A stretch of DNA of 64,000 nt, from positions 10,979,001 through 11,043,000 of the forward strand of contig NC_091972.1 of assembly GCF_036711975.1 (NCBI RefSeq), given 5' to 3'. The position numbers were made by a program, and so were the translations under genes. The notes beneath the pieces are model-generated. The model ran no database searches and was not told where the DNA came from. It saw nothing but the letters and a program-made list of their open reading frames with translations. This document shows, piece by piece, positions 44,601 to 50,600 of this stretch (position 1 is its first letter; the number at the start of each line of letters is the position of its first letter). The DNA is from Onthophagus taurus. Its lineage: Eukaryota > Arthropoda > Insecta > Coleoptera > Scarabaeidae.

Positions 44601-47600
44601 CTTCTTCATTATAGACTTGCACGTTAATATGTATGTGGATGTAGTCGAATGAATGATTTTAATCAAATCCAAATTCTATTTGGCATATTTCCATTCATTA
44701 TACTCATATGCATTCAATACGTTTCTCATATTAGCATTACTGGTATTAATTTACTAATTAAAACATTCCATTGTATTGATTTTCTTGTTTTTCGTTGTTG
44801 AAAATGTTTATTTAAATTGATATGAGCGTAGTTTTATTAAGGCACCTCTCTAATATGATGTTTTTAGTTTATTATGAAAGTTTATAAGCTGTCATATTTT
44901 AGAAAACTATGAGATAACGTTCCCATGTAACAATTAGCACACACCGCCGACGCAGGCTAATTAATTTCGCGTTAGTTTCCTTTTAAAACGAACACTGGCA
45001 TTGTATCAACTGTATTGTTCAGCGTTCGCCTCATTTTGTTACGACGGAAAATCCTGTAAAAACGTGGTGCAGCTATATACATTCCCTTTAATAACCATTT
45101 AAACCGGATCCTCACGCCGCGTCCGTTTAGATAACAGAATAGTTTCATGTTCCGTTTTTAAAGGTCTTTTCAACTTCCTTGCCATTTTGCCAATGGGAAA
45201 AAATAATATTAGAAGTTTCCTTAAACAGCAACCATAAAAATCTAGTTTAATGAAATAACAGCTTGGATGGTTGGAAAAAAAACGAAATAGAAACAATTCT
45301 TGGAAATGGAAATTTTTCTTTGTCTCATACGAAATTTTTGGTTTGTTTTTAGATCTTGAAGGGTGGCAACAGCAGCGACGCCTGTGAAATTCGAGATCCG
45401 TGTCAACACGGGGGTATTTGTATATCAACCGACAGCGGCCCCATCTGTGAGTGCAGAAATCCCGATTACGAGGGAGAATTTTGCGAGAAAGGTACGAATC
45501 CATCGTTCTTCGAAAAACCTTCGCACTTTAACAACGCGTATTCCGCGAAACTAGGTTAAGATGTATGCTTTCCATGCCGGGTCTACGATCTCGCTTCTAT
45601 TTTCTTTTTGTCCGTCGGGTACTCAACAGGTACTTACGATCAATCGATACCCTAGAACAATCTAGAAGTTTTCAAAGAAAATTTTAAAGTTTTGATTTTT
45701 TGTTTGATGTTTATACATAGTATTTGATACAATTTTACTCTATTTCCTTATCGATATAATCATTATTACTAATGATAAAAGCGATCAAAAACGTAATGAT
45801 TTTGCCATTATATCCTTCCATTAGTCGTCATGAATAAAAGCCGTTTAATATCTGTAGCGATCACATAAACGAAAATGACAACATTCACGACACGAAAAGA
45901 AACTACCTTAATGACAAAATTATAACATAGATAAAAAATAAATTATTTATGTAGATATTTAAAAAAACAACAAGCATAGTATAAGATAAAGTACATTAAG
46001 TTAACTACGTGACATTTTGAAATAATGTTGAACATTGATTTATCATTTTTCTGATTTAAAATCTAGATTTACACGCAAACACCATAAATCTAGTTGAATA
46101 CACAATCGACGTGACATCGATAGAAAACAATCGATTCAGAGATGAAAAAGAATTGAACTCGATAAAAATATCTCCTTGTTTTTTTACCTATACTTTTTTG
46201 TTAAACGTTGTGTTAGTTCTAGTTTTAGTTGTTATTGAATCGTTTATTACAAAAAGGGCCTAAGTCACATTGCTAGAGTTTTGAGAAAACTAACAAAAAC
46301 TATTTAATTTTGAGCAGCAGCAGATTTTTCAAAGTTTTTATATATGAACTGTTTTATTAGATAACAGTTTTATATTATTTAGAATTTAGTAGAAAATGAT
46401 AAGATTGGGGTCACTGTATTCAAGATTAAAGGTTCAGGACTTAGGTCCTTTTAACAATAAATGGCATTTTAGCTATCTTTTTGTAAGTTTATTTAAAGAA
46501 ATTCAAAAAATTACAAGTAATATAAAAGTTTAATGAAAAACTTTGCTTTTCATTTCTGGGACATCTGACGGATTCATTGGATAAGCATGTTTTTTTATAA
46601 TAAGAAGGCCACCAATCTTTCCAGTTTAAAATATCGGCAGTAGAAACTTCTTTGACGACAAATTTGTTATTTTTATTATTGGCAATGCCCTCATGATATA
46701 AATAAAAATATGCTTTCCCAGTATTTAAATTGTGAATACAAAAAACATTCACACTCAATTGCGTCAAATAAAAAAGATCTTGGACTGGAACTTCAGGTAG
46801 ATGCAAATTTTGCATAAAGTCAAAGGCAATTGCTTCTATATCGTTCCGTTCTTTAGTTTCTTCGGTAGTGTTTTGCAAAGAAGTGTAAAACTTTTTCGCC
46901 CTTCGCTTGTGCACTATCATTTCTGCAACTGCAGCCCTCTTTGAATTTTCACATAGCGAAGGACTTTTAATTTTTAAAGATAAATCTTCACACTGGCAAC
47001 ATGTATCGATTTGTGGCCGTCCAAAATGAAAATGAAAATGTTCGTGGAATATTTTTAGGTAGTAGCTATATCTTATTAGCGATTTCGGATGCTTCTCCTT
47101 AAACAGCTCATACATTTTTTTAACATTTAATTTTGCGTTTAGGTAGTGATATGCCTTTCCCGAATAGTGACTTTCCTTTACGGGAAAGGAACCTATATGT
47201 TCTCGAATTAAGATATTATCTATTTCTGGTATGGCATTTGATTTCAATGTTTTTCCTCATATCCTGGGGTATTATATTATTAACCAACAAATTCTTCAAC
47301 CTCTTTAAAAGTTTGTTAGTAATACCATGTAAATTTAAAAAGGCCGTCTGGCATACTTTTACTTTAGTGATTCCTTTCAAAACGTAGTGACAAAATGAAT
47401 TTTGCCGCTCTTTTCCATTTTCGTTGCGTTTTCTGTGCCTTACAACATTGGTTACTTCGATGCATCCTTGTAGATAAATATCCTGCTCGTTTTTAGTACC
47501 AAAACTATAAAATTTGTAGAAAATATTCAGTCTCTCGTCTTCGGTTAGAGTAACAAAGCATTTCAAACGGCACTTAAAGGATAGAAAAGTTGCGTTTAAT

Positions 47601-50600
47601 TTACTAAATTCATAGTATCTGTTTATGATTTACCTGCAGTATTCTCCTACTGTTTTAGCAGGCACTATCTTTCCTACATGATTCTTATGTTCTGTTCCCT
47701 TTACTTTGGCTTTCTTTATAGCGTTTCGGGAATAATTATCATCATTCCTTACTCCTCTACGCCATTTCTTGGAGGTTGCATGTTGTGTTTCTGCACCACT
47801 TTCACTTTCATCTATGCTACTGTCTAACATTTTTATAAGATTCACTAGTCTATAAATCTAGGTTAGGTTTACCACGTGTTGGTTCGTGCACATATAGACA
47901 CTACCTGCCTCTATATGGTAATTTGTAAAAGGAACTAAGTCCATGGACTTAGGCCCTTCTTACACTAAATGCATTTCATGGAGTATTGAAACACAGCATG
48001 CGTTGCTCGGACTTAGTTCTTTTTAACACCAAACGAGTAGGCTTGGTCGATTTAGTTAATAAATATTAAAAGCTCTAAATCACCAAAATGTGACTTAGGC
48101 CCTTTTTGTAATAAACGATTTTTTTGTTATTAAGCGTTAGATTTTTGTATATTTTTCATTGAACTAAAAGTAGAACGAAAAGTAGAACATTCGGGTTTAG
48201 CCGCATGTCTCTTAAGACGGCTAAACCCGAATGTTTCTAGTTCTAATGCTAGTGTTAGTTCTAATGATAGTGTTAGTTCTAGTTTTTGTTGTTTTTCAGT
48301 GCTAGATTATTGTATATTTTTATTGAATTAAAAGTAGAACTAACACTTGACGTAGAACTAGAAACATTCGGGTTTAGCCGCACGTCTCTTAAGACGGCTA
48401 AACCCGAATGTTTCTAGTTCTAATACTAGTGTTAGTTCTAATGATAGTGTTAGTTCTAGTTTTTGTTGTTTTTCAGTGCTAGATTATTGTATATTTTTAT
48501 TTAATTAAAAGTAGAACTAACACTTGACGTAGAACTAGAAACATTCGGGTTTAGCCGCACGTCTCTTAAGACAGCTAAACCCGAATGTTTCTAGTTCTAA
48601 TGCTAGTGTTAGTTCTGATGATAGTGTTAGTTCTAGTTTCTGTTGTTTTTCAGTGCTAGATTATTGCATATTTTTATTAAACTAAAAGTAGAACTAATAC
48701 TTAACCAAGAACTAGAGACATTCGGGTTTAGCCGCACATCTCTCAAGGCGGCTAAATCCGAATGTTTCTAGTTCTAGGTCAAGTGTTATATCTAATGGTA
48801 CTGTTAGTTCTAGTTTTAGTTGCTATTCACTGTTAGATTGTTATGTATTTTTATTGAACTAAAAGTAGAACGACCACTTGACATAAAACTAGAAACATTC
48901 GGGTTTAGCCGCATGTCTCTTAAGACGGCTAAACCCGAATGTTTCTAGTTCTAATACTAGTGTTAGTTCTAATGATAGTGTTAGTTCTAGTTTTTGTTGT
49001 TTTTCAGTGCTAGATTATTGTATATTTTTATTTAATTAAAAGTAGAACTAACACTTGACGTAGAACTAGAAACATTCGGGTTTAGCCGCACGTCTCTTAA
49101 GACAGCTAAACCCGAATGTTTCTAGTTCTAATGCTAGTGTTAGTTCTGATGATAGTGTTAGTTCTAGTTTCTGTTGTTTTTCAGTGCTAGATTATTGCAT
49201 ATTTTTATTAAACTAAAAGTAGAACTAATACTTAACCAAGAACTAGAGACATTCGGGTTTAGCCGCACATCTCTCAAGGCGGCTAAATCCGAATGTTTCT
49301 AGTTCTAGGTCAAGTGTTATATCTAATGGTAGTGTTAGTTCTAGTTTTAGTTGCTATTCACTGTTAGATTGTTATGTATTTTTATTGAACTAAAAGTAGA
49401 ACGACCACTTGACATAAAACTAGAAACATTCGGGTTTAGCCGCATGTCTCTTAAGACGGCTAAACCCGAATGTTTCTAGTTCTAATACTAGTGTTAGTTC
49501 TAATGATAGTGTTAGTTCTAGTTTTTGTTGTTTTTCAGTGCTAGATTATTGTATATTTTTATTTAATTAAAAGTAGAACTAACACTTGACGTAGAACTAG
49601 AAACATTCGGGTTTAGCCGCACGTCTCTTAAGACAGCTAAACCCGAATGTTTCTAGTTCTAATGCTAGTGTTAGTTCTGATGATAGTGTTAGTTCTAGTT
49701 TCTGTTGTTTTTCAGTGCTAGATTATTGCATATTTTTATTAAACTAAAAGTAGAACTAATACTTAACCAAGAACTAGAGACATTCGGGTTTAGCCGCACA
49801 TCTTTCAAGGCGGCTACATCCGAATGTTTCTAGTTCTAGGTCAAGTGTTATATCTAATGGTAGTGTTAGTTCTAGTTTTAGTTGCTATTCACTGTTAGAT
49901 TGTTATGTATTTTTATTGAACTAAAAGTAGAACGACCACTTGACATAAAACTAGAAACATTCGGGTTTAGCCGCATGTCTCTTAAGACGGCTAAACCCGA
50001 ATGTTTCTAGTTCTAATGCTAGTGTTAGTTCTAATGATAGTGTTAGTTCTAGTTTTTGTTGTTTTTCAGTGCTAGATTATTGTATATTTTTATTGAATTA
50101 AAAGTAGAACTAACACTTGACGTAGAACTAGAAACATTCGGGTTTAGCCGCACGTCTCTTAAGACGGCTAAACCCGAATGTTTCTAGTTCTAGGTCAAGT
50201 GTTAGTTCTAGTGCTAGTGTTAGTTCTAGTTTTTATTCAGCGCTAGGTTGTTATATATTTTTATTGAACTAAAAGTAAAACTAACTAATACAGAACGCAA
50301 CTGTGTGGATAGCTGTTCGAATTTATGCAAGAAATAATGAAATTGTTAATAAAAAAGTAAAAATAAATCCATTTACGAGATAGCACCAAAAAAAAAGAGA
50401 GTTTAGAAAGGGCAGAGATAATAGCCGAACATTTACATTCTATCCCAGGCTGAAAAGGGCTTCGTAAAAAAGAAAAAGGTTGACAGCGGTTTTTCCAGAC
50501 CACGAGGTGACATTTTAGTTATTGGATCGAAAGCAATTATTGGTCGAGGTCGATTTAAACGCAATTGATGTGTTATTCGTTAAAATGTATCTAAAAGAAA

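Follow-up and report, generated by a model that had tools for sequence, protein, structure and literature searches.

The window examined here is a 64,000-bp stretch of the genome of the beetle Onthophagus taurus (assembly GCF_036711975.1, contig NC_091972.1, positions 10,979,001 to 11,043,000). On its minus strand lies a dead, internally deleted copy of an approximately 2.5-kb, two-exon cut-and-paste transposon whose gene encodes a protein of the Pfam family DUF7869 (PF25273). Sequence comparison of the copies in this genome indicates that DUF7869, a widespread insect family of unexplained function, is a transposase that leaves a 4-bp duplication of its target. We regard it as very likely that the DUF7869 protein is the transposase and that the stretch in the window is its transposon. 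The ends and surroundings of this copy are as follows.

46237..48120, minus strand: transposon copy, with the left end G at 46237 and the right terminal C missing (ends set by sister copies)
46237..46271, plus strand: left terminal inverted repeat, GAATCGTTTATTACAAAAAGGGCCTAAGTCACATT, on the 3' side of the gene (G start taken from sister copies)
48087..48120, minus strand: right terminal inverted repeat, on the 5' side of the gene (sisters run 1 base further, ...CGATTC)
46233..46236, plus strand: inferred target-site duplication, left copy TATT (from 4-bp duplications at 17 of 26 other loci and the gapless satellite junction)
48121..48127, plus strand: TTTTTGT standing for the terminal C, an altered right end (in the four complete sisters the duplication directly follows CGATTC)
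48128..48131, plus strand: inferred target-site duplication, right copy TATT (from the gapless satellite alignment of the joined flanks with one TATT)
48186..50285, plus strand: 177-bp satellite array of 11.9 copies, host DNA outside the element, forming the right flank

The inverted repeats are paired at 34 of 34 bases (46238-46271 and 48087-48120), as a first-pass annotation of the sequence had reported, and a 29-bp part of them has no third site in the window at up to 3 mismatches (none in 100 shuffles). The left junction reads TATT|GAATCG, and the right junction TTTTTGT followed by TATT. Replacement of the terminal C by TTTTTGT before TATT indicates that the right end of this copy has been altered, possibly by repair or conversion from the neighboring satellite. 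When the two flanks are joined with one TATT, they match several satellite monomers at up to 88-89%, without gaps at the junction. The element therefore probably landed at a TATT of a satellite monomer and lost the terminal C of its right end afterwards. The satellite setting had been recognized in the first-pass annotation, which also proposed an 8-bp duplication, TTGTTATT. Its letters are present without directly adjoining the right inverted repeat, and the duplications at the 17 of 26 other loci are exactly 4 bp. The apparent 8 bp would arise because satellite letters preceding TATT happen to agree.

Around AAACATTCGGGTTTAGCCG, each 177-bp monomer also holds an inverted repeat of approximately 46 bp with a complementarity of up to 91%.

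The minus-strand gene was likewise found as annotated, with its HFGRPQ..DTC..C and FDFMQN motifs. Its protein pieces run from MLDSSIDES to GEYC and from CRLKCF to DMRKN, followed by a 252-codon open reading frame with both motifs. The best database relative of these pieces, P0001 (547 residues), matches 73% of the query at 93% identity.

47634..47830, minus strand: transposase gene, exon 1 (MLDSSIDES...GEYC; exon break shared with family B, described below)
47574..47633, minus strand: putative intron of 60 bp with a GT donor (five-copy alignment; splicing inferred)
46489..47573, minus strand: exon 2, broken by a frameshift near 47256 and two internal deletions (tblastn of P0001 against the window; alignment)
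46807..46824, minus strand: FDFMQN motif, holding D250 of P0001, which is proposed as the first catalytic aspartate (invariant in A1 and A2)
46661..46690, minus strand: junction of a 303-bp deletion, with the second and third aspartates (D327, D369) gone (sister alignment; comparison with P0001)
46520..46549, minus strand: junction of a 305-bp deletion in the C-terminal coding part (sister alignment)

The gene appears to consist of two exons separated by a short GT-AG intron, whose acceptor is AG in the four sisters and AA in the window copy only. The frameshift and the 303- and 305-bp deletions are features beyond the first-pass annotation. With two of the three aspartates lost, this copy would be unable to make a working transposase.

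Related copies and their target sites

The 291-Mb assembly of which the window is part (33 contigs) was searched with P0001, which matched at least 87 stretches, several of them from one locus (1483 first-look candidates, of which 79 were scored). The end of the window element occurs at both ends of five elements, the window copy included, and once alone; we refer to these five as family A. The four complete sisters range from 1702 to 2500 bp in length and share 97.7-98.2% identity with one another and 97.8-98.4% with the window copy over aligned bases. In all four, the ends extend to GAATCG...CGATTC with AATT on either side. The coding part is broken in all five copies. The family A copy on contig C6 lies inside a 3572-bp segment (L009 1464-5035) that is bounded by separate 50-bp inverted repeats (TATACAGGGTGAGTCAGAAAG...) and is apparently a different element.

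We examined 26 other loci, comprising 20 from the top of the match list and 6 from further down with long frames, with protein identity down to 32%. Of these, 17 have a terminal inverted repeat of the form GA...TC with an exact 4-bp duplication just outside it. The duplicated word is AATT in ten cases, AAAT and ATTT in two each, and TATT, AGTT and ACGT in one each. The termini that the first-pass annotation proposed to check by aligning genome copies were thus borne out as common ends, and the duplication proved to be 4 bp rather than 8 bp long. No direct repeat longer than 4 bp (5-12 bp tested) was found at these 17 loci. The inverted repeats are approximately 20-39 bp as aligned, with the duplicated bases included in some, and the elements span 2.1-2.8 kb except for L014, a deleted copy of 1.7 kb. 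Four terminus types (GAATCG/GAACCG, GAGGACC, GAAGGGT and GAAGGGG) carry the DUF7869 protein.

The duplications fit AWWT in 14 of 17 cases, against a background of 6.2% in the flanks (1242 of 20,094 four-letter words), and the preceding base is C in 11 of 17. Six are not palindromic and are therefore certain direct repeats; the other 11 are palindromes that might, in principle, belong to the inverted repeat. Drawing four-letter words at random from the same flanks gave a match in 0.62% of 34,000 draws. Swapping flanks between elements gave 94 matches in 272 pairs, owing to the high frequency of AATT, and 4 in 30 among the non-palindromic six, since two words occur twice.

For each of the 17 insertions, the left and right flanks were fused around a single 4-bp copy and the product was searched in the genome; empty sites were found for seven (L009, L010, L014, L020, L024, L025 and L028). 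In these sets, 119-124 bp were matched with equal query and genome lengths, and the best match of each was 98-100% identical; L014 has four such places at 100%. For an eighth insertion, L017, the joined flanks reach 90-94%, the matched lengths differing by as much as 7 bp. The matched places look like uninterrupted versions of the repeats that received the elements. The presence of one 4-bp copy at the empty sites fixes both the element ends and the 4-bp duplication, five palindromic cases included.

Recent movement is seen in family B, whose three copies (L011 2382-4810, L012 2645-5073 and L013 2315-4743) are identical over 2429 bp, lie in three different flanks and have both exons open. Three identical copies at three sites point to very recent transposition, barring an assembly fault.

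The remaining 9 of the 26 loci (L016, L018, L019, L021, L022, L023, L053, L054 and L056) lack a GA..TC repeat with an exact duplication. Copies without these termini had been named in advance as evidence that would speak against the proposal; they occur at these nine loci and not at the other 17. At L053, L054 and L056, long open frames are accompanied by inverted repeats that span 28-39 bp and are 87-96% identical, with no exact duplication at a GA end. L019 and possibly L054 resemble decayed forms bearing AATT, and no convincing terminal repeat was found at L016, L018, L021, L022 and L023. L021 and L022 are approximately 8 kb apart, give equal match rows against P0001 and are probably a local duplication of one copy.

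The DUF7869 protein and its proposed binding sites

When the window pieces were compared with 5.8 billion proteins (1421 candidates), 138 relatives were obtained at E ≤ 0.001; 602 database proteins belong to the family at E ≤ 0.01. Named relatives among the best 120 of the 138 come from insects (beetles, stick insects, cockroaches, hoppers and moths), and the named family proteins among the matches listed mostly carry the labels uncharacterized, hypothetical or unnamed. No relative was confirmed in the viral and prokaryotic contigs searched. DUF7869 was found in all five relatives scanned against Pfam (52 bits for P0001 against a cut-off of 26). The other matches in these five, at E up to 1, were weak ones to RPAP3_C, TTC3 and Tho1_MOS11_C, with no transposase family among them. 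Pfam describes the same protein family and gives it no function; here it takes the role of transposase in mobile elements.

The protein is approximately 550-620 residues long and is the product of the only sizeable gene of the element. Other stop-free stretches on both strands of the intact 2429-bp element are at most 83 codons, and at most 53 from the first ATG (exon 1). Structure prediction gave, with confidence, an RNase H fold like that of integrases and Mos1, and three aspartates (D250, D327 and D369 in P0001) are invariant. Judged by secondary structure, they would occupy fold positions where RNase H-type enzymes carry acidic residues, and they may be catalytic. The first-pass annotation had proposed looking for an RNase H fold with a DDE/D triad; the predicted triad is of the DDD type. 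Its view of the protein as a transposase gains support from the termini and duplications of the copies, from the empty sites and from the predicted fold with its triad. The likeness to the Mos1 mariner and retroviral integrase cores lies in the predicted RNase H fold with acidic residues; identity with the DUF7869 protein is only approximately 10%, and we claim no common membership.

Core motifs recur inside the ends of the window element.

46253..46266, plus strand: terminal core AAAGGGCCTAAGTC, proposed binding site (motif search, as for all rows here)
46438..46451, minus strand: subterminal core copy, opposite orientation
47928..47941, plus strand: subterminal core copy
47946..47959, minus strand: subterminal core copy
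48010..48023, minus strand: subterminal core copy
48092..48105, minus strand: terminal core in the right inverted repeat

These six copies, counted with as many as 5 mismatches allowed and including the two terminal ones, compare with a mean of 0.17 and a maximum of 2 in simulated sequences (n = 60), which agrees with the repeated GGACTTAGG..CCCTTTT motifs noticed earlier near both ends. In the family A copy A_C6, the cores lie 16, 98, 162 and 180 bases from the end on the 5' side of the gene and 16 and 201 bases from the other end. In family B, whose core is AAAGGGCACATGTC, the spacings are 16, 98, 164 and 181 and 16 and 200, with the same orientations. The inner cores differ from the core of their own family by 1-3 mismatches in A and 0-2 in B, and from that of the other family by 4-6 and 3-4, respectively. 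A common layout with changed letters is the pattern expected of transposase-binding sites, and the inner copies in the two families compared in detail are probably such sites. Other families, for which counts were made, have 2-8 core sites per element, terminal sites included; the 3 sites of L026, L027 and L052 are not above the largest random count, and the 2 sites of L024 equal it. Copy A_C10 has lost some sites through a 34-bp deletion in the core region.

Superfamily placement and proposed transposition

Several known superfamilies can be set aside. Tc1/mariner elements duplicate a 2-bp TA, which does not fit the 4 bp at 17 loci. The target of piggyBac and Kolobok is TTAA, which is found in 0 of the 17 duplications. 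Ginger, Transib, MULE, Harbinger, hAT and others have Pfam models, and none of these matched the five relatives at E up to 1. Duplications of hAT, P and Mutator-like elements are 8-11 bp long.

PMC7913693 lists 17 cut-and-paste transposase superfamilies. Sola elements are described as having a DDD transposase, a 4-bp duplication and a length of 2-9 kb (PMC10741241), and the Sola2 duplication is given as AWWT (PMC3627910). Sola terminal inverted repeats are reported as 11-1124 bp. The DUF7869 elements resemble Sola2 as described in their 4-bp AT-rich and mostly AWWT duplication, predicted DDD triad, terminal inverted repeats, size of 2-3 kb and single gene. They differ in protein length, the Sola2 transposase of Dictyostelium fasciculatum being reported as 888 residues against approximately 550-620 here. 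A search for longer relatives gave no named dictyostelid among the matches listed. The superfamily of this DNA transposon, called unclear at first pass, is thus probably Sola2 or close kin, going by the published descriptions of Sola.

Alternatively, DUF7869 transposons may form a superfamily apart from Sola1, Sola2 and Sola3 that converged on a 4-bp AT-rich duplication and DDD, which we consider rather doubtful. Pfam yields DUF7869 and no known transposase family, no mention of DUF7869 was found in the literature searched, and the named relatives among the matches listed are arthropods. However, duplication length, AWWT form, triad, size and terminal repeats all agree with Sola2 as published, and taxa were seen only from the best 120 of 138 and the best 120 of 602 matches, so that the absence of other taxa says little. 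A separate superfamily beside the 17 listed, characterized by an integrase-like RNase H DDD core, a 4-bp AWWT duplication, an asymmetric core layout common to two families and recent movement in this insect (three identical copies), is an unlikely description of these elements.

It is very improbable that the DUF7869 protein is a host gene or a passenger of a transposon moved by another transposase. The nine loci without clean termini and duplication would fit such a protein, but elements with four kinds of terminus all carry this one protein, the intact 2429-bp element has no other long stop-free stretch, and a transposase fold with the triad is predicted. A conserved single-copy host family, which the first-pass annotation had named as the other outcome that would speak against its proposal, is not the pattern seen in a genome with at least 87 matched stretches, where 17 of 26 loci have termini and duplication. 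Membership in a superfamily with 8-bp duplications (hAT, P or Mutator-like) is scarcely conceivable: TTGTTATT stands on both sides in the window, but duplications are exactly 4 bp at 17 loci with no 5-12-bp direct repeat, the 4 bp occur once at the empty sites, and no hAT, P or MULE domain was found in the five relatives at E up to 1.

We propose the following pathway for DUF7869 transposons, with Sola2 or close kin as the preferred placement. The N-terminal part of the protein, perhaps a DNA-binding winged helix, would recognize the core motif at and inside both ends. The RNase H-fold domain with D250, D327 and D369 would cleave the element at its ends and insert these into a target with a 4-bp stagger, in most cases AWWT and frequently preceded by C; repair would then produce the 4-bp duplication. 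Having retained most of its ends, the window copy could move only if another copy supplied the transposase.

With the DUF7869 family as the transposase of a defined element, annotators could take such models out of insect gene sets, and the catalytic residues and binding sites become testable. Family B, recently mobile and with open exons, is a candidate insect transposition system. If the family is Sola2, Pfam DUF7869 is linked to that superfamily; if not, it represents a new one. Three Callosobruchus models (P0193, P0198 and P0199) have a DUF7869-like part beside HECT or beside many domains including PF00400 and PF03568, and are either gene fusions or products of faulty annotation. In Holotrichia oblita, the DUF7869 protein P0024 bears the name RNA polymerase subunit RPABC2, apparently through misannotation.
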